The position numbers and the translations under genes are program-made. The notes under the pieces were generated by a model. That model searched no databases. It was not told the DNA's origin and saw only the letters and a program-made list of their open reading frames with translations. From Trissonchulus latispiculum (taxonomy: Eukaryota; Nematoda; Enoplea; Enoplida; Ironidae): 64,000 bases of DNA. Of this stretch, positions 10,603 through 48,276 are shown piece by piece (position 1 is the stretch's first letter; the number at the start of each line of letters is the position of its first letter). Location: contig JASAND010000819.1 of assembly GCA_030248195.1 (NCBI GenBank), forward strand, positions 1 to 64,000, given 5' to 3'.

Positions 10603-13138
10603 ACTGAAAGACATTCCCAGTTTTGAACAACAGAACGATTTCTCAATCTGTGTATACGGATTCGACAGATCAGTTCATATCCTATACCTATCAAGGACCA
10701 GACATGAGAAGCATCTCCATCTACTGCTACTGAACAATCAGCATTATTGCCTAATGAAGAACATTGGAAGACTCCTTCACGATCAACGGAAAGATAAAGG
10801 AAGAAAATACTTTTGCAATCATTGCCTATTTCCATTTCCTACTGAAGAACGAAGAAGTCAACACCAGGACCTTTGTAACACTGATAACTTGCAGATAACT
10901 GTTATGCCATCGTCAACAAAACTAAAATTTCAGAACGATCATAGACGTTTGAAGCGACCTTATGTGATCTACGCAGATTTTGAGTGTTTGCTTGAAAAGA
11001 TAGACACTTGTCAACCTAATCCGTCCGTACTCTTCATTCACTCACACATACGAACATCACTAACCTTGCGGATATGGGTTAGTAGATGTACTCCAGTGTT
11101 GTGAGGGAAAGCCCATAGTGAGAGGTCAACCAACAATATACCGGAGTGGAAATGCAGTGCAGAAATTCCTCAGGGCGGTCATACAGAAAGGTCAGCAGTT
11201 TCAAGACCGATTGAATAAATATCCGAAACTACCAAACTCCTTCAACATGGTGCACAATGTCATCTATGTGAAGGTGCAATTGAGGAAGGTGAGTCTACTA
11301 GGGACCATTGTCACATTTGCGGGACGTTCTGAGGTTATGCTCACAGGCGGTGTAACCTAAAATATAAGCTCGGGCGGACAGTTACAGTAGTGTTCCATAA
11401 CCTAAGACGGTATGACGGGCATCTAATTATGCAAGAGATTGGGAAGATCAGTAAGGAGTTTAAGCTTGACATCACCTGTGTACCGAAGGGCTTGGAAGAC
11501 TACCTATGCTTTGAACTGAAAACGTCGAACAGGAGTGGCGGATTAGGTTCATTGATAGTTACCAGTTCCTGAATAGATCATTGGATACACTGGCAGACGG
11601 ACTGACTGATGAAGACTTTACATTCACATCTAGAGTCTACGGAGATAAACTTTCACTAATGAGAAGAAAGGGAGTTTACCCGTATGAGTATATGGACTCG
11701 TGGGATAGATTTAGTGAGACTCAGTTACCACCTATTGAAGCGTTTCATAACACATTAACTGATAGCGACATTGAGATCCAAGACTACGAGCACGCAAAGA
11801 CTGTGTGGAATGAGCTAGGTATAGAGAATATGGGACAGTATCATGATGAATACTTGAAAACAGATGTCCTACTATTGGCAGATGAGGTAGAGAATTTTCG
11901 CAAGACTAGCCTAAAAACATATGACTTAGATCCTTGCCACTACTGTACTCTACCTTCATTTGCCCGGGACGCATGCCGCAAGTATACGGGACAGGAGTTA
12001 GACCTTGTGACTGATCCAGACATGTACAAGTTCTTTGAAGATGGTATTAGAGGTGGAGTGGCAATGGTTGCCCAACGGTACGCAAAGGCCAATAACCCAC
12101 TGCTAGAGGATTATGATCCAAGCAGCCAACCTCATATTACATACGTGGACATGAACAATCTATATGGGCGGTCAATGGTCCAGCAACTACCCTTGCGCAA
12201 CTTTAGATGGATGACCAACTTGAACCAATGGCGAGACGTTCCTTGTATCCTTGAAGTCGACCTTGGTTATCCACAACATCTACACAATGTACACAATGAC
12301 TACCCACTTGCACCTGAGAGAATTACCATTAGAGAAGAGATGATATCGCCATACAGTAAGGATCAAGGAGGATATATGAGATGTGAGAAGTTCAGTGCCT
12401 AATTTACGCAATAAGACTGGTTACATCATACACAAGCATACCTTAATGCAATATATAGACCAGGGATTAGTGCTAAGGAAGATACACAGAGGAGTGACCT
12501 TTGAGGAAGAAGAGTGGATGAAACCTTACATTGAGTTGAACATGATTAAGAGGGTAGCGGCGAAAAGTAAGTTTGAAGAAGACCTACAAACTCATGAATA
12601 ATGCGGTATCTGGTAAAACGATGGAGAACGTCCGTAACCATGTAGATATGAGATCAGTCACCACCTCAGAGAAGTTGGAGAAGTTAGTTGCAAACCCCAG
12701 ATACAAGGCATGTGAGGCATTTTCAGAAGACCTGATCGCAGTACAGATGCAGAAGCGTTCAGTTAAGCTATGCAAACCCGTATATGTAGGATTCACCGTA
12801 CTGGGACTATCAAAATACCTCATGTACATCTTTCACTATAACTACATGAGGCAAAGGTATGGCGACAGCGTTAGCTTACTGTACACAGATACGGATAGCT
12901 TTTGCTACCATATGACAGCAAGTGACGTATATCAGGACATGAGAAAGGACATTGATCTATTTGACACCAGCAACTACCCTAAGGACCATCCACTTTATTG
13001 CAGTGCTAACAAGAAGGTGATAGGCAAGATGAAGGATGAAGCTAAGGGAAAGCCAATCAGCGAGTTTGTAGGATTAAGGGCAAAGATGTACAGCATTAGG
13101 TGCGAGGGTGATGATAAGACAGCAGCAAAGGGACTTAA

Positions 13139-14896
13139 GGGGGGGTCCATTTTTGGCCGATTTTTCGACCATCTCCGATTTTGCTCATTTTCACATATTT
13201 TGTTGTCCGATTGGTATATTTTAACGAGTTTTTGAAATGAAGGTCGGATCTCTTACGGTTAGCAAGTAATTTCACCTCAAAGTTGATGTCAGTATGTGTT
13301 AAACATAGGAAACGGAAAAAGTTGTGATTTTTCCGTGCGCCAGAGAAATCTTGCCAACGACAAAATGGAGCACTTCAACATCCATCCTATATCATATATA
13401 CGATCTCGAAGGGTGATTTGTAGGTAGGGTTGTCCCCGGGCCGTGTAGCGGGCTCCGGCCCTGGGCCGGGCCCGGGCCGGGCCGGCCCGGTTTACTCCCG
13501 GGCCCGGAAAATTTTGAGGTGGGCCCGGCCCGGGCCCGGCCCGGCTCTGGCTGAAAGCCCGGGCCCGCTTTTTTAAGCCGGGCCCACCGGGCTTCCGGGC
13601 CCACCGGGCTCACCGGGCCTGCCGGGCTCACCGTGCCGGCCTGGCTCATCGTGTCTGCCAAGCTCAGTTTGCGAGTCTGGGACTTCCTGCGGCCCGGGCG
13701 TTGAGCCGGGCTTAGTAGCGGGCCCACGCTTTGGAGCCCAGGCCTATCACCGGGCCCGGGGATTTGAAGCCGGGCCAAGAAGCGCGCCCGGGCTTGGGCC
13801 GGGCCGGGTAGCGGGCTCCGGGATTTGATTGGGCTCCGGGCCTGGGCCGGGCCAAGCCCGGGCCCGGGCCCGGCCCGGCTGAAAATTTAGGCCCGGGCCC
13901 GGGCCCGGCCCGGTCAATTTCTTATCGGAACAACCCTATTTGTAGGAAGCAGAATTTTAATTTAGGCCTTCAAAAATTTTTAATTAATTTTTTAAGTTTG
14001 CGAACAGCCAAATTTGACTGTTTTGCAATGTTAACGTTGGGGGTCAGCAAGTTTGATTAAATATTCTGAAAGCTGTAAGCCCTAATTAAAAATTCTACTT
14101 CCTACAAATCACAGCTTATGACAAGACATTTCGGACGATACCAATTGATCCTGGTCACCTCTGTTCGATTTCGAGATTTCTCTGGCGCAGAAATCTCAAT
14201 TTTTAGCAAAATGTAGGAAATTCCCGTTTTTTGGCAAATAACCTAGAGCTATGGCAACACAGACCTATAAAATGTTAGTCTATCTATTTGCGCACGATTA
14301 TTGATGAGTTTAGGTCAAGTTTGGGCACAAATGCTCCAGGTTAGTGCACCCAGTTGGTCGCTGGGGTCAAATATGGGGGTCTGACAACCATAATCTCAAA
14401 AATAGCGATTTCTCAAATTTTTCGAAATACGTTAAATTTTAAATCAATCGAAAGCTCTCATTGTCGTGAACATTTTTTCTTGTTGGACCATTGCCCGCAA
14501 ATCCACCAAATTCAAGTTATCGGCCGTTAAATGATTTTCGTGGTCAAGGCTTTCCAGCGTCGGTGCTACTTCCTAAAATCACTAAATAAAGTCATAAAGA
14601 AACGTTTTCCCATTAAAAGCTGCCCTAAGTTCTTTGTTTGCATCAGATATCAAACATACAACCGAATATAGCTCCATTCTCAAGGAAGTTCAGGTGTAAA
14701 GTGCGTTTATTTGCTGCGGCACCGCCGTTTTCACTTGTTTTCAAATTGCATGCAATTAATAGCCGGTTACTCGTTAAGTACTGAACGAAACTACTCTAAA
14801 TTGAAACTCGATATGCAGGACATATGTGACAAAATTTTGTGTGAAAATGAGCAAAATCCGTGACCATAAAATTTTTCATGGTGGACCCCCCCCCCC
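13139..14896 (+). mobile_element. TTAA-flanked piggyBac-like non-autonomous element, 1758 bp
   Basis: Inserted in the polymerase with TTAA on both sides (13135-13138 and 14897-14900), the target used by piggyBac-type transposases. The ends are imperfect inverted repeats: GGGGGGGTCCA...GATTTTGCTCATTTTCACA on the left and the same motifs reversed on the right. No transposase frame. A related 5' end without the later hAT insertion is at 41717-42030. Assignment to piggyBac rests on TTAA and end structure only; other TTAA-specific families are possible. Confidence 0.75.
13425..13938 (+). mobile_element. GC-rich hAT-type MITE, copy 1 (514 bp), nested
   Basis: Ends TAGGGTTGTCC and GGAACAACCCTA are inverted repeats. 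A perfect 8-bp duplication TTTGTAGG flanks it (13417-13424 and 13939-13946). The interior is built from GGCCCGGGCC-type units, extremely GC-rich in an AT-rich surrounding. The related sequence at 41717-42030 aligns straight across this site without the insert. No transposase; the long open frames here (for example 13392-13778, minus) are composition artefacts. Confidence 0.88.
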
Positions 14897-33200: not shown

Positions 33201-33541
33201 CCAAAAATGTTCAGTAGTTAGTGAGAAAAACTTAATTGAAATTAATTAATACCTGCACAGATTGCGTTCTGCGCAGGCTTATTAACGTTAACTTGCTTGT
33301 GTTAATTAGTTAATGAAGAATAATTGGGCTAAAGGTTATATCATTTTGTAGAGTTTGGAGAGCTGAACATTTTCCTTTTTGAAACAGCTCAAACCGTCCA
33401 GGTGTTAACGAGAAAGTTACGATTAAAGTTTACCTTCACATATGCGTAATTTGTGCATGTAAAGTACTAGCTCAACTGCACATGTGCTGGGTTGCCAAGT
33501 TGCTTTCCTATATAGACTGGCTTGAACTCGTTCTAATCATA
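30291..33541. other. Gene-free stretch, transposon debris
   Basis: No gene supported. There is a tRNA-T-arm-like sequence on the minus strand at 32001-32030 (GGTTCGATTCCCG) and a worn tRNA-like stretch at 30730-30790. CTGACTGACTGACTGAA forms a short tandem near 31825. Confidence 0.4.
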
Positions 33542-33613
33542 ACCCGTGTAGCTCACTGGATGAGTACCGGACTTCTAATCCGGAGGACCTGAGTTCGAAT
33601 CTCAGCACGGGAT
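33542..33613 (+). tRNA. tRNA-Arg (anticodon TCT), intronless, possibly tRNA-derived repeat
   Basis: A full cloverleaf can be drawn: acceptor ACCCGTG/CACGGGA (only the outer A-A pair fails), D arm GCTC/GAGT with GG in the loop, anticodon stem CCGGA/TCCGG with loop CTTCTAA (anticodon TCT), variable region of 5, T arm CTGAG/CTCAG with loop TTCGAAT. A T4 terminator follows at 33620-33623. The sequence is not close to the usual animal cytosolic tRNA-Arg(UCU) as I know it, and the mismatched first pair leaves a pseudogene or SINE head possible. Confidence 0.65.
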
Positions 33614-36600
33614 TATTTCTTTTCTTTTAGTTTGGCTCGTCTTTGGGGCCTCTGACATTGGAGGTTAAAACTGCCATAAGGTAAGTGATTACAGTTGTAA
33701 ACGTGAATACATGATAATTTTGAACAAGGCAATGAATACATCTGCCCTAACTAGGGCTAGCTATACCGATCAATCACTTTACAGTTAGTATAAACTTTAG
33801 CTAAGTAATACGACAAAACTGCGAAAATTTTCTTAGCTAGAACCAAATGGACTACTAATCCGCTAATCGGATGTTTGGCACGCAATACTAAACTTTGGTT
33901 AATTTCGTATTAATTTAAACATTTCTTTGTTACAACCCTGATTTGACTATTCCTGGATTCCATGAATGCGGCTCATCCGTCCCCTAATCGCAGAGCATTA
34001 CCTACACGGATGACCGGGAATCCATCAGATTTGGCAGACCTAATTCGGGGTCCCCGTGACCCTAGGCTGCAAACCTACCTTAAATCGCCGAGTATACCAG
34101 CATTTCTATGTAGATTCATACGCGTTTCACTCCAAAATTAACATTTTCACAGCGGTTATTTGTCTAACCAACAATTATTACAGAATTTGAATTATCTATG
34201 TTTTGGGCCCAAATTGCTACTTAATTTGGCCCCTTTTCCTGTCTCATATCTGAACATTTTACACTCATTCTGGCAATTCCAAGACCCTTATCAAACAAAG
34301 GGGGTTTATATGGTATGCCCTCATTCACGCTCGAATTACACAATTTTGGTTCCTAGCTCACACTTTACAAAAAGGGGCTAGCCTTGGAACCTCACACTCC
34401 ATGAGGGGTTTACCCAAGGAGCCATTTACGTAAATTTGGGCAGTCTCATTCACACAATTACCATCACAATCACGTCAACGACTATACAAACAACGAAACA
34501 CATAATACAAATCTTGATATGTCCTAACATTTCCCTATCTATTCTATTTACTCTTTGTATGCACATTTTGTTCAATTTCTGGATTGACTAGCTTCCATTT
34601 GGGCATTGGAAATTTATGAGTTTTGTAAATTTCACAAGGATTACGAATTTTAGAACTTTGTTAACTTTGGAAAGCAGAACGAGTAATAATTTGCTCAGGC
34701 AATTATTACAGCAAACAAAACTACTCAAACACATTCCGCTAAGGACAGCTTTATTTTGTTAAATTAACTTTGGGGAAGCCGGCCATTCTCCTTAAACGAC
34801 TGTATAATTAATAGTTAAGACGATGCAGAATTTTTAATTCCTATTAATTTTAGTTGCCGACCTACACAGGATTACAATTCACAATGGCAGATGATATACT
34901 TTGCTTCAGTAGCGCCTATGTTGCGATTACGGCCGGCAATTCCTGATTGCCGGCTGTGGGGAGAATGATTCCCTAAACTTAACTCAGTTCTAATATGAGG
35001 TCGTAACCAAGGGACCTCCTATCTCAACTCAGGGGTGGGTCCCCACTCAGAATCCCAGTTCATTAGCAAAACTCCGACAGGATAAAAAAGGTAAAAACTG
35101 GGCATTAAGCCCTTACTAAAAATTAAGGCCAACTAGGCCGTGGCTTGGTTAAACAAGGTCAATTTTACATCAAGGCCCGAAGGCCACAAAAAGCTAATTT
35201 TAGGCCAAAAAAGGCCTGCTAAAAATCCCTAAACTCGCGTTCCTAAGGTGTAGGTTCTGGCCGAGCATAGCAAGCTCATTTGGCCCTCAATGTGCGGTGT
35301 TCGTCGTGTTGGCTTAGATCGTCTCCTCTGACCAGTGTGGGTCAGAGGAGGTCCCTAACTCGTGTCCTAGCAAGGGAAAGTACGTCTTTTATTCCCGGCC
35401 AAAACGCTGGCACAGCGGGAAGACATACTGATGTGGGGTGGGGGAAACCCGACCGCTCTCGGCCGAGACTCAGACGAACACTGATGAAAATTTGAAATTT
35501 TCCAGTGAGCTGACAGGAGTCTGACAGCTCACTGGTGTTTGCTTTTCTGTCGCTTTTCCTTTGATTTTGGGTGGAGCTTCCAGAAATTTCTGGAAGCTTC
35601 CTATCTTAAACTGTGTGCCCGACGCGGGCTGGCGAGGCGGCTGGTCCGTTGGAGGGGAGATTAACGAGGAAAAGAAATTATGACCCTCCAACTGACCCTT
35701 TTTTAATGGATTTCCCAAGCTGAATTTTGGGAAACTTTGCAGACTTTTTGGTTAACACATAAAGGTAACCAAAGGGGAAATTTCTAGCTTTAAAAATTAA
35801 ATGGTATGAATAAAAAACGGAATTGTACAAAATACAGACTAGTTAGGAGGGCAATTGTTGCGTAAAACTGTGCATACAAGGAACTACGTATTTTTGCAAA
35901 AAATGAAAACTAAATATTATTGTTCTACGTGCGAAACTACTAAAGACTAACTACTTTCATTTCATTTTAATTATTTGGGAGGGAGTTAAGCCCTCTCCAA
36001 ACCTATTTTCACACCTAAGGTGTGTACTAAGTCTTCTCTGCAAGGCAAGTCTTCGCTGGGTGAGGGCCAACAGAAGCCCAAGAATGAGTGGAGAAATGAA
36101 TGAACGTAACAACACGTGGTTGTTATGTTCTGTTATGAAGTTCACGTAAGGCCAATATTAGGTGATTAAAATGTAATCTGTCAAAACTTCTTTGGCCTGT
36201 ATTTCTCGCGTTATTGGGAGTTAAAAGACCGGGTTTGGCTTTTTAGAATCAGAAAAGAATTGCCTTTCAGATAAGCCCAACTTGCATTTTTGCCAAAAAT
36301 TGCACAAATTGACTAATTACCACCTAACTGATGCAAATTATGCCTAACAAAGACTTGGGAACACTAATTAACATCATCTTATGCTACTAATGGACGAATT
36401 ATTACCTTATTTTGACCCATCTTCCAATATTCGCACTTATTGGCGGCGTAAAACGTTTTAAACTCGAAATCTCTTGTTGAATTACTGGTTATTTGACAAT
36501 CTCTTTCTTTGTGTTCGTTTTCCTTGATAGTTTTAGCTGTTTTAATCGGATTTTAACGAACTTCTTGACAATGAGAAGCCCTATTCGTGGCCTGGGAAGA

Positions 36601-37836: not shown

Positions 37837-38399
37837 GGCTGAGCACCAACTAACCGCCTATGAATAATGATTGGCCTTATATAGCAGAAAAGTATAAAGA
37901 AATCGTTATTTAACCTTAGTTTTAATTTGAGTAATTACGAATTTTTAAGGTTTTTGAAGCAAACACGAAAAGAAATCCGGTATCAATTGGGGGCTCAAGC
38001 TGTTGTTGTTGTTGTTATTTCCTGGATTATCTGGCGGACCAATATGATATAAACCACCTCAGAGGCGACCTATCCCTCGCAGGAAATCCACCACTGCAAG
38101 GGGGGCCTCCGTAAGGACCGCCAACGTAGGGTTGGTTCCCAGATGCCTGGCCCGGGGGATTGCGTACGCTGGGGCTCAAGCTCATCAGATTCGTCAAGAC
38201 CGCACTAATATTGACAGTCTAAACCATGTAACTTTCATTCTTGAAAAAACTAAAGCAATACGACCAGCAATCATCAAATTGTTCAGGTAAAATCGGATCT
38301 CCTGCAAGTACAAGCTGGAGTTGATCATATTGATCAACAGTTCATTTCTGATTTGCAGAATCATAAACCTATCTGTCATGTATATGTCGTAGTCATATA

Positions 38400-39274
38400 G
38401 TGTAATTGGACACTTCAGGAAGTGTCAGATAATTTCCGACTTTCCATGAAGTGTCAGACACATACTGTAATACTTTGTTAAACACCTTTATTACACTATC
38501 TGTCAGGTCATTTCTGACTTTTCATGAAGTGCCAATGCCTCAATTGACACAGTGAAATCCAACAGTACACGCCATTTGAAAATATTTTTCATTATTTATG
38601 ACGTAAATAGATACCACTACAACAGTCAAACTAGAAATAGAATGTTTTAAGGTAGCTTTAGCTTTAAAGCTTTAAAATAAAGTTAAACTATTTATTTTTG
38701 AATTGTCACAAAATAAAATAAGTTATTCATAACTAATTAACCAATACATAAGAATTATAATTTGAGTGGAATCTGAATAGTATTTATTTTACACTATTTT
38801 CTTTATAAAAGTATTCATTTATGTGTTGTTCTTTATTTTAAAAAATTCTTCATTACTGACAGAATTCCTTTGGATTTACGTCACCTGTTTGTTTCCTTAT
38901 TAATTCGTTTTATTTGTCGTAATAATTCATATTAATTCGCCTACTTTTAATACTGGTGCCATTTATATACCTTGCATCTGTTGAACGTTACGTATATAAT
39001 TACTAATGTAAACTGTATTCTCAAACTAACAGTCTGTTTCTGTTTGACTATTATAACTGTGTCCATTACGTCACAAATAATGGAAAATATTTTCAAATTG
39101 CGTGTACTGTTGAATTTCAATATGTGTCAAATGAAGCATTGGCACTTCATGAAAAGTCAGAAATGACCTGACAGATAGTATAATAAAAGTGTTCAAAATA
39201 GTATTACACGATGTGTCTGACACTTCATGAAAAGTCAGAAATTATCTGACACTTCATGAAGTGCCCAACTACAC
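38400..39274. mobile_element. TA-flanked MITE with about 155-bp inverted repeats, 875 bp
   Basis: Left 38400-38555 matches the reverse complement of right 39115-39274. Ends start GTGTARTTGGRCAC and are bordered by TA, fitting Tc1/mariner-type insertion. Each inverted repeat holds two copies of TTTCTGACTTTTCATGAAGTG and the palindrome CACTTCATGAAGTG. The center is AT-rich, with no transposase. Confidence 0.75.
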
Positions 39275-43797: not shown

Positions 43798-43803
43798 TTT
43801 AAT
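43798..43803 (-). promoter_or_regulatory. Possible poly(A) signal of the peroxidase gene
   Basis: ATTAAA on the minus strand, about 70 bases after the SECIS element; a common variant signal at the expected place. Confidence 0.35.
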
Positions 43804-43872: not shown

Positions 43873-43945
43873 TTTGTTACAAGGACATCCGGAGAGGTTC
43901 ACGTCTTTGTGGGGTTTACAACCTCTCCTTCACAACTGTAACAAA
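43873..43945 (-). promoter_or_regulatory. SECIS element (type II) of the selenoprotein glutathione peroxidase
   Basis: A 3'-UTR RNA hairpin that recruits SECIS-binding protein so UGA is read as selenocysteine. On the minus strand helix I pairs 43945-43938 (TTTGTTAC) with 43880-43873 (GTAACAAA). The 5' quartet GTGA (43933-43930) faces GGAT (43890-43887), fitting NTGA...KGAW. Helix II is a perfect 9 bp, GGAGAGGTT (43928-43920) with AACCTCTCC (43899-43891). The conserved AAA is at 43917-43915, 12 bases after the quartet, and a CAC/GTG mini-helix follows, giving form II. It begins about 290 bases after the stop codon. Confidence 0.9.
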
Positions 43946-44231
43946 CTAACAGTCAATGCAGCAGGTTTAAATTAGTTTTCAAATAGGTTTAGGAGCCTTG
44001 TTTCAAAATGCCTAATTCACAAATATCACAATTAGTCAACCTGTTGAGCCAAACCGCATTAACTGTTCCAACTGTGCATAACATCATTATGGCAAGTTTT
44101 CTAGCGCAGCACTAAACATAGTAAGTATAAGAGTTATTGTAACGGAGTAACATGTGATCAAGGTTTTTTCGCATCGGAATGGGTGGGATAGAGGGGAGCA
44201 GAGAGTTTATTTTGACCCGAGATTTGACCCA

Positions 44232-44441
44232 CTAAGGCCTCGGCTCGGCCACTAAGCCTTCCATATACCCGGCAACCTCAGACCCGTGATACCAATTCTC
44301 TGGATGGAATCGATATCTAGGACGGCCCTGTCGATCGAAGAGGAATTTTTCGAAATTCCAGACGATGTCCGTGACCTGGATCGGCTTCCAAAACATGGCC
44401 TCCTTATCGCCCAGGGTCTCTTGAGTTGGCGGACAGAGACT
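44232..44441 (-). CDS. Glutathione peroxidase exon 3 (C-terminal)
   Basis: Starts in phase 0 after TTATTTCAG. Encodes residues 148-216, beginning SLCPPTQE and including DIVWNFEKF with Trp175 and Asn176; stop TAG at 44234-44232. Confidence 0.95.
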   Translation of the reverse strand, partial: SLCPPTQETLGDKEAMFWKPIQVTDIVWNFEKFLFDRQGRPRYRFHPENWYHGSEVAGYMEGLVAEPRP

Positions 44442-47400
44442 CTGAAATAAAACAGAATTCAGTGTAATATAGCATAACAGTGTCGATGCTTGCAGAGATT
44501 GTAGGACTTTAAACAGCAAGGAATTGTGTAGTGCTGTTACCCGGACTGGTGGACCAAGAGGAAACCGAGAGATGGCCCATACGTGGGGCATCAGGCACCT
44601 TTGTACCCACGAAACTAGGACATAGGTGAAAGAAGGGAAGAGGGAGCTTCAGCTTGTCGTTCAGGGCTAAAAAGTAAAGAATTGGCTCAGCCGGGGTTCG
44701 AACCACGGCAATTCTGCTCCTGAGTCCCTACCCTACAGGGCCATCAGCTAAACTCCCACATCACGCTTATGAATTGTTCCTTTGCCTACACTTTTCTTAC
44801 ACCTGTACCAACCAAAACATCACAATCAAGGTTTATAAAGTCTGAAGCGTTCTGCTGTTTCATTACCTTAGATTTTAGGCCACTGAAACGCAGACTTTCA
44901 AAAGGCCTTTTCAGTCACCCGAAAGCTCAAGGTAAAAGGTTTGCTCTTGGTCATCAGTTCGACCAAGATTTTATAATACCAAGAGTGGGAAACTTGGCCC
45001 TTCCTAATGGAAATGGCCTGCGAGATGCTCGGCAGATTAAGGCCGAAATCTCGGGGGGGAACCACTTACCGTATTCTCGCGCTTAAGGGAACATGTTCTC
45101 TTAAGTGAAATACGGGCAAAATTGGAAATTTTTCTGATTTCACTTAAGAGAACCCGTTCACTTAAGAGAACAGGTTCGCTAAAGTGAACGTATAGTACCA
45201 CTAAGACTCAATCGTATCTTACTTTTCTTCTATTAATTACTGTTGTCACATTTTGTGGTATTTAGGTATGAATGGTTACTTTGTCTTAGAAAAACCTAGA
45301 ATTTAAATTTAACATTCAAAAGCAATACTTCTGGTTATGCTTAAAGATTTTACTGATTTCACTTAAGGTGGTGATTCCCTTTGGTCACATAAAGTTTGCA
45401 CCATTATTACTCATTCATTACTTGGAGTTAAGAAGCCATTTTTATATCAAAATGTAGCTTGACATTTTCTCTTTTTAATGCATGCCACGAAACTAATGTT
45501 GCTGTTCTAAAATATTTTTAACACATTTTAGAAGAAGTATAATTTTCCAGAATTTTTGCTGACTCGAGCAAATTTTTTCGCGAGACATCGGTTATATCAT
45601 TCGATTCCTCCATCAAATAGCTGGGGACGATTTTTTATTTATTGTGAAATCGCTCTTCGTTGTAGAGAAATAAGCTGAAATGTGTGCGTAACCTGTATTT
45701 TGCCTACTTTTTCCAAATTTGTCAAGCGATTACTTTAGCTAGAAAGCAGCAATCGGGGCAACTAAAAAATCGTCCCTGGGTATATTTGTGCAGAACACAG
45801 TAGCAGCCCTCCAGATTGCATGGTGAATGCTCCATAATCATTGGAAAAAATTGGTCGTGTTTTTGCAAAAACTACATTTTTTATGATAGCAGCCTACAGG
45901 ATAGCAGTTGGAAGACGATCATGCGTCGGATAATTTGTCCCTGTGAGACCTTCAGATCGACGCTCTTAGTTTGATTTTACGGCTTGCGTAGTTCAAGAAA
46001 TGTTGGATTATTTGATTTCTGCAAAAATGACAAGTTTTCGACACCAAAACAAGAAAAAACGGCTATATTTCACGGTAGAGAAAAGCTAGAAACTTGCTTT
46101 AAAAAGCAAAAATGTGAAGCTCAACGAGATCTTTCAAATGAATATAGTTCTAAGTGTATAGCTGCAGCCAAACTTTCAGAAATTTGGAAAAACCGCCCTG
46201 ATCAGAAATCTCGAATTTCTGAGCCGGGATTGCGCGGAGGGTGTTAGAACGCTAAAAGAACTTATTTCGGAAAGTTTCATCAAATTTCATCTTGATTTAC
46301 GCCGCCAACCAACAATATGTGCCCAAAAGGAATCACCACCTTAAGAGAACATGTTCACTTAAAAGAACATGTTCTCTTAAGTGGATGTTCTTTTAAGCGC
46401 GAGAATACGGTACCATTGTTCAGCATGTGTTTATATGCGTTTGAACTAAAACGCATCATATTGGCTAATCGCCCACCTTATGTCAAATTTACGTGTATAA
46501 GTGGCCCCCCCGAGAACTCGGGGGGGGGGGTTGCGCTTAGCGTTATAAGCGTTTGTTTATATGCAGTCGAACGGAAAAGCCTCAGCTACCGCAATCCTCA
46601 TCAGTGCTTTCAGTTCGACTGCATATAAACACACGCTGAACAACGCTAAGTGGGAGGGACCCCACCCCCGAGATCTCAGGGGGGTCCGCTTATACACGTA
46701 AATTTGACGGCTCGCAGGCCATTTCCATCAGGAAAGGCCAAGCTTCTCACTCTTGGTATTATAAACTCTTGGTTCGACTATAGTCTCCCTCCAGTAATCC
46801 CATCATCCTACATGGGATGGTATCTGTTACCAGTCCATTGGATCCCATTCAAGAATGCCTCTTTTTGGCTAACAAAAGTCCTGGGTTGCCCTCACCCCCC
46901 CCCCAATAACCAGCACTGGTATGGTCATGTCTAAACGTAACAATTATATATCTAACCTTCATCTGTTTATACATCGGATGAGCCTCTTCGCCGTTAACTT
47001 TGAGTTTTCCAAAGATATCGACGTTGGGTTCCGGTTCCCAACCGTTGCCGGGTCGAACGTATTTCAGGCCGTTCAGAATTTCATGATTCTTTCCGGGTTC
47101 CTGGAGTTCAAACTGATTACAGGGGAAAGCGAGAATGCGAAAACCTTGATCACGATAGCGCTGCACTAGAGGATTGAAGTCCAAGTACTGTTCGGTGTAC
47201 CCTGAAATAAAGAAATGAAGGAGTAAAAGAGTTATAATTAGAAAGAGACAGAAGGTAACAGGGTTGTTCCGGTTAAAAATTGACCGGCCGGATTCGGGGC
47301 CGGCCTAAATTATCAGCCGGCCCGCTATTAGGCCCGGAGCCCAATCAAAGGGAGCCAGCTGGCAACTACCAAGCCCGGCCCAAAGCCCAGCCCACTCCTT

Positions 47401-48276
47401 GGCTCGGCTTTAAATCCCCGGGCTCGGTGATAAGCCCGGACTCCGAATCCCGGTCCCGCTACTCGGCCCGTCTCAAATCCCGGGCTGCTGCAAGCCTCAG
47501 ACTAGTAAACTGAGCCCGACAGGCCCGATGAATCCGGTAGGCCCGGTGGGCACAGAAGCCTGGTAGGCCCGATGGGCCCGGCCTCTAAAACCGGGCCCGG
47601 TAGCGGGCCGGGCTTTCAGCCAGAGCCGGGCCGGGACCGGGTCGGGCCCAACTCAAAATTTTCTGGGCCCGGGCCTAAATCGGGCCAGCCGGCCCGTGTC
47701 CAGCCCAGGTCCGGGAGCCCGCTACACGACCCGGGGCAACCCTAGAAGGTAATACATAAAATTACAGAAGAAAATAGCTTGAAGGAAGACTTCTTTAGTA
47801 ATCTCCTCCTTAGTCCGTCAATTTATGTATGTGACAATTTCTGTTTGACTGTGGAAAATGTTTTACTTACGTACTCAGCTGGTAGAAACATTAAAATGTG
47901 CTATAGCAAGATTTGGAGAGCTGGATTTGCGAGATTGGCGAAAATCGCATTTTGGTGATGATTGGTAACAAAAGTCTATTATACCGCAGAGTTATGATAG
48001 TCGAAAGCTTACTCCATAAAAACCTCCATACATACATATTTACTGCTCCACGTAAACTGTTTAGATGCTTAGTTCTGTACCTCAGTAGGTCGCCACATTG
48101 ATGACCAAGAGTACATCACCACGATACTTGGACAGGGGTACCTTTGTACCATTCAGCGCGTCAACGCTGTAGTCAAAAATGTTCATGGTATTCGGTCGAC
48201 AGATTGACATCCGTTGATCTGCCTTGGCGAAGACGATCGCCGAAAGCAGCGACCAGAGCACAGCCTGTGGCTGCAT
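44232..48276 (-). CDS. Selenocysteine glutathione peroxidase, secreted GPX3-like, three coding exons
   Basis: Reduces hydrogen peroxide and organic or lipid hydroperoxides, usually with glutathione. Exons on the minus strand are 48276-48081, 47201-46957 and 44441-44232, joined by GT-AG introns; together they encode 216 residues. An N-terminal hydrophobic stretch (about 1-18) looks like a signal peptide, so the enzyme is probably extracellular. The catalytic tetrad is complete: Sec65 (TGA at 48084-48082, in NVATY-U-GYT across the first splice junction), Gln99 (FELQEP), Trp175 and Asn176 (DIVWNFEKF). FPCNQF (91-96) and LKYVRPGNG (111-119) are family signatures. The long form with a signal peptide resembles GPX3/GPX1 rather than the short GPX4 type. 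The ATG is the first after an in-frame TAG upstream; a possible acceptor at 48351-48353 suggests a 5' UTR intron. The TGA is not decay: tetrad, splice sites, frame and SECIS are all intact. Confidence 0.95.
44675..44830 (-). mobile_element. tRNA-derived SINE, copy 2, in intron 2 of the peroxidase
   Basis: Same family and strand as 28165-28345. B box GGTTCGAACCC (44704-44694); the A box is worn. The shared upstream part contains GTGTAAGAAAAG and GTGATGTGGGAG. Inserted in the sense orientation of the host gene. Confidence 0.7.
45069..46410. mobile_element. TA-flanked MITE, 1342 bp, in intron 2 of the peroxidase
   Basis: Ends CCGTATTCTCGCGCTTAA and its reverse complement (46393-46410) form inverted repeats with TA on each side (45067-45068, 46411-46412). 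Subterminal AAGAGAACATGTTCTCTTAA-type palindromes are repeated at both ends. No transposase; the 87-codon frame at 45984-46247 has no recognisable domain. A smaller inverted pair, GGGACGATTTTTTA, at about 45621 and 45780 may be a nested 160-bp MITE with TA flanks. Confidence 0.72.
46417..46708. repeat. Long imperfect inverted repeat
   Basis: TGTTCAGCATGTGTTTATATGC (first bases at 46417) is mirrored at 46625-46642. GTCAAATTTACGTGTATAAG (46482-46501) is mirrored at 46689-46708. CTTAGCG and GCATATAAAC blocks also pair within. A C/G homopolymer hairpin (46504-46529) sits inside. Snap-back element in intron 2, not assigned. Confidence 0.6.
46957..47201 (-). CDS. Glutathione peroxidase exon 2
   Basis: Acceptor TTATTTCAG before 47201, donor AAG/GTTAGA after 46957. 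The first two bases complete the Gly codon split by intron 1. Encodes residues 66 (part) to 147 with FPCNQF and Gln99. Confidence 0.95.
47259..47744 (-). mobile_element. GC-rich hAT-type MITE, copy 3 (486 bp), in intron 1 of the peroxidase
   Basis: A perfect 8-bp duplication GAAGGTAA flanks it (47251-47258 and 47745-47752). Ends CAGGGTTGTTCCGG and, on the other side, GGGGCAACCCTA match those of copy 1 in inverted orientation. The interior is GGCCCGG-rich. Confidence 0.88.
48081..48276 (-). CDS. Glutathione peroxidase exon 1, with signal peptide and Sec codon
   Basis: Starts [17 protein letters not shown] (secretion signal) and ends with NVATY, TGA (Sec65) and one base of the next codon; donor G/GTACAG. 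A standard translation would stop one codon before the exon ends. Confidence 0.93.
48082..48084 (-). other. Selenocysteine codon (TGA)
   Basis: TGA sits where all peroxidase family members have the peroxidatic Sec or Cys. Both flanks of the codon are conserved (NVATY before, GYT after splicing), and the SECIS at 43945-43873 supplies the decoding signal. Confidence 0.93.

Follow-up and report, generated by a model that had tools for sequence, protein, structure and literature searches.

Within the 64-kb window (the whole stretch of DNA analysed here), three exons on the minus strand (48276-48081, 47201-46957 and 44441-44232) constitute a gene for a 216-residue protein of the GPx3 type, with the coordinates and phase given in the preliminary description of this locus. 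The joined exons comprise 651 bases, or 217 codons including the final TAG, and contain a sole internal TGA, which is codon 65 and occupies the catalytic position of the motif NVATY-U-GYTEQY. The gene and its 3' flank are composed of the following features:

48081..48276, minus strand: exon 1, with an ATG start at 48276 and a hydrophobic N-terminus, ending NVATY-TGA-G
48082..48084, minus strand: in-frame TGA, residue 65, at the column that holds Cys/Sec in GPx relatives
47202..48080, minus strand: intron 1, GTACAG...TTTCAG, starting one base after the TGA and containing a copy of a GC-rich repeat
46957..47201, minus strand: exon 2, YTEQY..., with the catalytic Gln99, followed by the donor GTTAGA
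44442..46956, minus strand: intron 2, which contains hairpins and one copy of a dispersed repeat
44232..44441, minus strand: exon 3, with Trp175 and Asn176 and the stop TAG at 44234-44232
44206..44211, minus strand: AATAAA (motif only), 21 bases after the stop and before the SECIS element
43876..43942, minus strand: SECIS element past the stop, Rfam RF00031 (SECIS_1), full model positions 1-64 of 64
43798..43803, minus strand: ATTAAA, a possible poly(A) signal (motif only), 73 bases beyond the SECIS element

The predicted splice sites, which were judged by eye and by reading frame, are consensus-like. As had been claimed, the first donor lies one base past the TGA (48084-48082), which is followed by a single G and then GTACAG, and exon 2 supplies YTEQY in the right phase, with only the acceptor at 47201 keeping the GPx frame through that exon. 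We tried 36 splice joints and compared the 12 with a length divisible by three; four of these use the 47201 acceptor and keep the GPx frame through exon 2, and the only difference among them is one or two residues where exon 2 meets exon 3. By hydropathy plot only, a hydrophobic stretch is seen near residues 4-20, and the N-terminus encoded by exon 1 is probably a signal peptide of a protein predicted to be secreted.

Both introns also hold repetitive sequence. The GC-rich repeat occurs in two inverted copies (13425-13843 and 47744-47330) that are 78% alike, the latter lying inside the first GPx intron, and the proline/glycine-rich frames within these GC-rich stretches are probably not genes. 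Two long hairpins in intron 2 (46557-46628 and 45087-45161), whose matches to microRNA families fall far below the cut-offs, are probably pieces of inserted elements.

The predicted protein matches the Pfam GSHPx domain (PF00255) above its curated cut-off (120.7 bits vs 27; E = 2.5e-35) over residues 33-147, and the best of the 41 solved sequences matched is human GPX3 (E = 2.3e-44), the structure entry for which we take to be 2r37. Its best named protein matches, among the best 120 of 1028 listed, are nematode glutathione peroxidases. An alignment of the three exons with the GPX family, which had been named as a way of checking the original claim, places the TGA on the Cys/Sec of the GPx relatives. 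Identity with the C. elegans protein P0014 amounts to 18/39 in residues 26-64, 49/81 in residues 67-147 and 33/68 in residues 148-216; across the 13 relatives compared, identity in residues 26-64 ranges from 12/39 to 22/39, with exon 1 being less conserved than exon 2. The catalytic tetrad of these enzymes, given as U/C, Q, W and N in an excerpt of PMC9925728, is complete (U65, Q99, W175 and N176), and its last three residues are encoded by the downstream exons in agreement with the preliminary description. Since the Pfam domain and the GPX3 structure are both matched, and conserved residues flank the TGA on both sides, we do not regard the gene as a chance assembly of reading frames. A tblastn search of the 64-kb window for a second GPx copy matched only the three exons well, the three other matches having E values of 4.3 to 6.3.

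Beyond the stop codon lies a SECIS element that is outside the coordinates of the preliminary description, which had given none. At curated cut-offs, Rfam recovers two RNAs in the 64 kb, namely one tRNA and this sole SECIS match, which passes narrowly (36.7 bits vs a gathering score of 35) with an E value of 0.0011 for the window times all 4227 families. The element starts 290 bases past the stop; in the spliced mRNA, some 745 nt would separate it from the UGA. Its core, with positions counted by hand from the Rfam match, comprises GUGA at 43933-43930, the apical AAA at 43917-43915 and GGAU on the 3' side at 43890-43887. The region 43962-43856 has a fold z-score of -3.19, with one of 200 shuffles being as stable, and its unconstrained minimum-energy fold pairs the outer (lower) stem otherwise than the SECIS model. 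The G that precedes the quartet here instead of an A is uncommon, and a 2005 study by Taskov reportedly calls it the nematode form. In the excerpts of the literature at hand, an A precedes the quartet in most eukaryotic SECIS elements, those of vertebrates included (PMC3473315), while several selenoprotein genes of nematodes (and zebrafish) are described as having a G (PMC2375036). The single tRNA recovered is a tRNA-Arg (TCT) at 33541-33614 on the plus strand; the window yielded no tRNA-Sec, the gene for which need not fall within these 64 kb.

The position of the TGA at the exact peroxidatic Sec/Cys site of an intact glutathione peroxidase, together with a SECIS element downstream of the stop on the same strand, supports the earlier proposal that this TGA is a selenocysteine codon. 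We hold it very probable that this three-exon nematode gene encodes a GPx3-type glutathione peroxidase, probably secreted, in which UGA codon 65 is decoded as selenocysteine; to judge from its sequence, the locus most likely functions as a selenoprotein gene rather than being a pseudogene. In eukaryotes, SBP2 and eEFSec deliver Sec-tRNA to the ribosome at UGA codons. Here, they would supply Sec-tRNA at codon 65 via the downstream SECIS hairpin, such that the mRNA bearing this hairpin would be translated with Sec at the UGA, and Sec65 would act with Gln99, Trp175 and Asn176 to reduce hydroperoxides. Exon junctions downstream of a stop codon can expose an mRNA to decay; since such junctions lie downstream of the UGA, the GPx mRNA may be open to decay under low selenium.

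The choice of poly(A) site, AATAAA vs ATTAAA, would decide whether Sec insertion is possible, as the former, if used, would leave the SECIS element out of the mRNA. An addition to the main reading would accordingly have the gene produce two mRNAs: a short one without the SECIS element, leading to a 64-residue peptide or to decay, and a long one coding for the Sec enzyme. The placement of the two hexamers, one just after the stop and the other beyond the SECIS element, speaks for such a switch, but they are motifs only and hexamers of this kind occur by chance too, and we regard this addition as doubtful.

The residue at the Sec site in relatives bears on both the status and the history of the gene. 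In the 121 aligned rows (the best 120 of 1028 matches and the query), this column holds C in 92 and W in five, with 16 proteins starting later and seven showing another residue or a gap. Fifteen further matches from a profile search (among the best 120 of 5560) comprise eight with C, five with W, one starting after the site and one unaligned there. The named nematode relatives among the matches listed carry C, the exception being P0088, a model without the motif. All 10 W rows come from the sources jgi or lgn and bear no species name; these sources are presumably environmental or raw-read assemblies. The row for rat GPX3, which is a Sec protein, displays C at this site, and thus some records may use C in place of U; for nematodes, automatic annotation would probably seldom yield a U. 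We know of no role for Trp as a peroxidatic residue, and a Mycoplasma-type code reads TGA as Trp; hence, W at this site points to TGA. More generally, we infer from these protein records that the W rows, and those starting just after the site, probably reflect a TGA there. W in the relatives could also be a true Trp codon, and the later start of a database protein may also be due to the contig being short or to the gene model, such that these rows are suggestive only. The W or later-start state is frequent among relatives without a species name, as would be expected if UGA were common at this site in unsampled nematodes. The gene itself is likely to be lost by ordinary annotation, a fate consistent with the relatives whose records are truncated, or give Trp, at this very residue. 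Two rows, P0081 and P0250, of 244 residues each and each on a 912-base contig, show C and W respectively in the Sec column and may be a close Cys/Sec pair.

Against this background, we considered the possibility that the locus is a copy of a Cys-GPx with one nonsense change that is now a pseudogene. A TGA is one step from the Cys codons, the residue shown by the named nematode relatives among the matches listed, and repeats lie within the introns; but everything else in the gene is intact, and the SECIS element, which a Cys gene in decay would not be expected to carry, is placed as a selenoprotein requires. Hence, we consider this reading very unlikely. That the TGA is an error of sequencing or assembly in a Cys gene is scarcely credible in the face of the SECIS match and of the W or shortened state of the relatives without species names. 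It is primarily the SECIS element that sets both of these readings so far below that of a selenoprotein gene.

The history of the Sec site was studied with two GPx trees: a careful one of 73 hand-chosen rows out of the 121 (48 being left out) and a quick one of all 121; the 15 further profile-search matches are in the alignment and outside both trees. In the 73-row tree, the query lies inside a 65-row group of nematode rows and rows without a species name (99/98), and within a 22-row group whose support is below the starred level (83/86) and which holds 15 truncated, three W and three Cys rows; the truncated rows P0101 and P0109 and the W rows P0117 and P0118 fall outside this smaller group. 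The 121-row quick tree does not recover the 22-row group and places the query in an open fork. In that tree, the W and truncated rows, with the exception of P0110, are outside a 72-row, mostly Cys nematode group (98), and they are also outside an 11-row all-Cys group with five Plectus rows (99); the minimum number of changes between the putative Sec states (W, truncated and query) and the Cys state is nine. Both P0117 and P0118 are long-branched and placed outside the nematode rows; they may belong to other animals. These patterns favour repeated Sec/Cys change in the family, with its direction unproven, and the replacement of Sec by Cys in nematode glutathione peroxidases looks incomplete and repeated.

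A further indication of the lineage comes from elsewhere in the window, from a single-exon frame (2651-1338, minus strand) for a rhodopsin-type receptor that resembles the SER-2 tyramine receptor and matches 7tm_1 over the full length of the profile. Its nearest named match, among the matches listed, is from Plectus sambesii (47%). A quick tree of 36 rows (the query and 35 hand-chosen from the best 120 listed) places the receptor in a starred 19-row group with all the nematode rows used and outside a starred 13-row group of Plectus and other named nematodes, in a topology where no single branch sets the named outgroup apart and where P0124, the sister of the query, is long-branched. From this placement, the lineage of the genome looks like one that branches outside Plectus and Rhabditida, and it is probably a poorly sampled early nematode branch.

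Mobile elements may account for further parts of the window. On the plus strand, 10604-13235 contains several reading frames, one of which (11515-12402) matches DNA polymerase B (PF03175), with no Pfam match in the frames neighbouring it; the region is perhaps a decayed element of putative Maverick/Polinton type. An inverted repeat (38398-38646 and 39276-39028), 87% alike over 251 bases, is possibly another mobile element.

Nematodes are a standard case of selenoprotein loss. In the excerpts of the relevant papers, C. elegans and C. briggsae are credited with one selenoprotein, thioredoxin reductase, with C. elegans keeping a Sec decoding system for one codon (PMC2375036), and selenoprotein loss is cited for some nematodes (PMC4561486) and for plant-parasitic ones (PMC5330540). 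Likewise, the C. elegans GPX4 and GPX3/5/6 are listed as Cys-dependent (excerpt of PMC9925728). Among the protostomes examined in PMC2679728, as excerpted, GPx3-like genes are found in nematodes alone and these homologs have a Cys codon, the sole Sec GPx among the ecdysozoans examined being the tick Sec-PHGPx; the same text mentions and doubts an old proposal of a vertebrate origin for nematode GPx3. No report of a nematode Sec-GPx was found in the titles and abstract starts of the open-licence literature matches listed. We lean, with some reserve, towards a broader scenario: Sec would be ancestral in the nematode GPx3-type enzymes, widespread in unsampled early branches and repeatedly converted to Cys, such that 'one selenoprotein' would describe the well-studied branches only and the databases would hide the rest as truncated or Trp-bearing glutathione peroxidases. 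With a Sec-GPx and its SECIS element in a nematode that apparently branches outside Plectus and Rhabditida, it would become testable in what order and how many times Sec gave way to Cys in a peroxidase; such a gene also bears on the proposal of a vertebrate-derived nematode GPx3. The gene also illustrates how annotation can hide Sec-GPx genes, and its value lies in its lineage and in the relatives that the databases seem to hide.

As a type, a Sec-GPx with a SECIS element is a member of a standard family of selenoproteins; what is unusual is solely its occurrence in a nematode. Vertebrate GPX3 uses Sec, and the gene described here has in common with vertebrate GPX3/GPX6 (the plasma and olfactory-type enzymes) the GSHPx domain, the NVAxY(U/C)G motif, the tetrad and the KYVRPG region. 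The eight vertebrate GPX rows among the matches listed show 38-48% identity to it and differ in their C-terminal part. Further, its SECIS element has G before the quartet, whereas that of vertebrates mostly has A (excerpt of PMC3473315). The closest named relatives are the secreted GPx3-type enzymes of nematodes, such as C. elegans GPX-3 and the Brugia cuticular glutathione peroxidase, with 42-58% identity among those listed; in contrast to the present gene with its UGA, the named members listed have C at this position, save the motif-less model P0088. C. elegans thioredoxin reductase, in which Sec sits near the C-terminus, belongs to an unrelated protein family. The likeness to it lies instead in the use of Sec in a nematode and in the G before the SECIS quartet, which is reported for several nematode selenoprotein genes (excerpt of PMC2375036).
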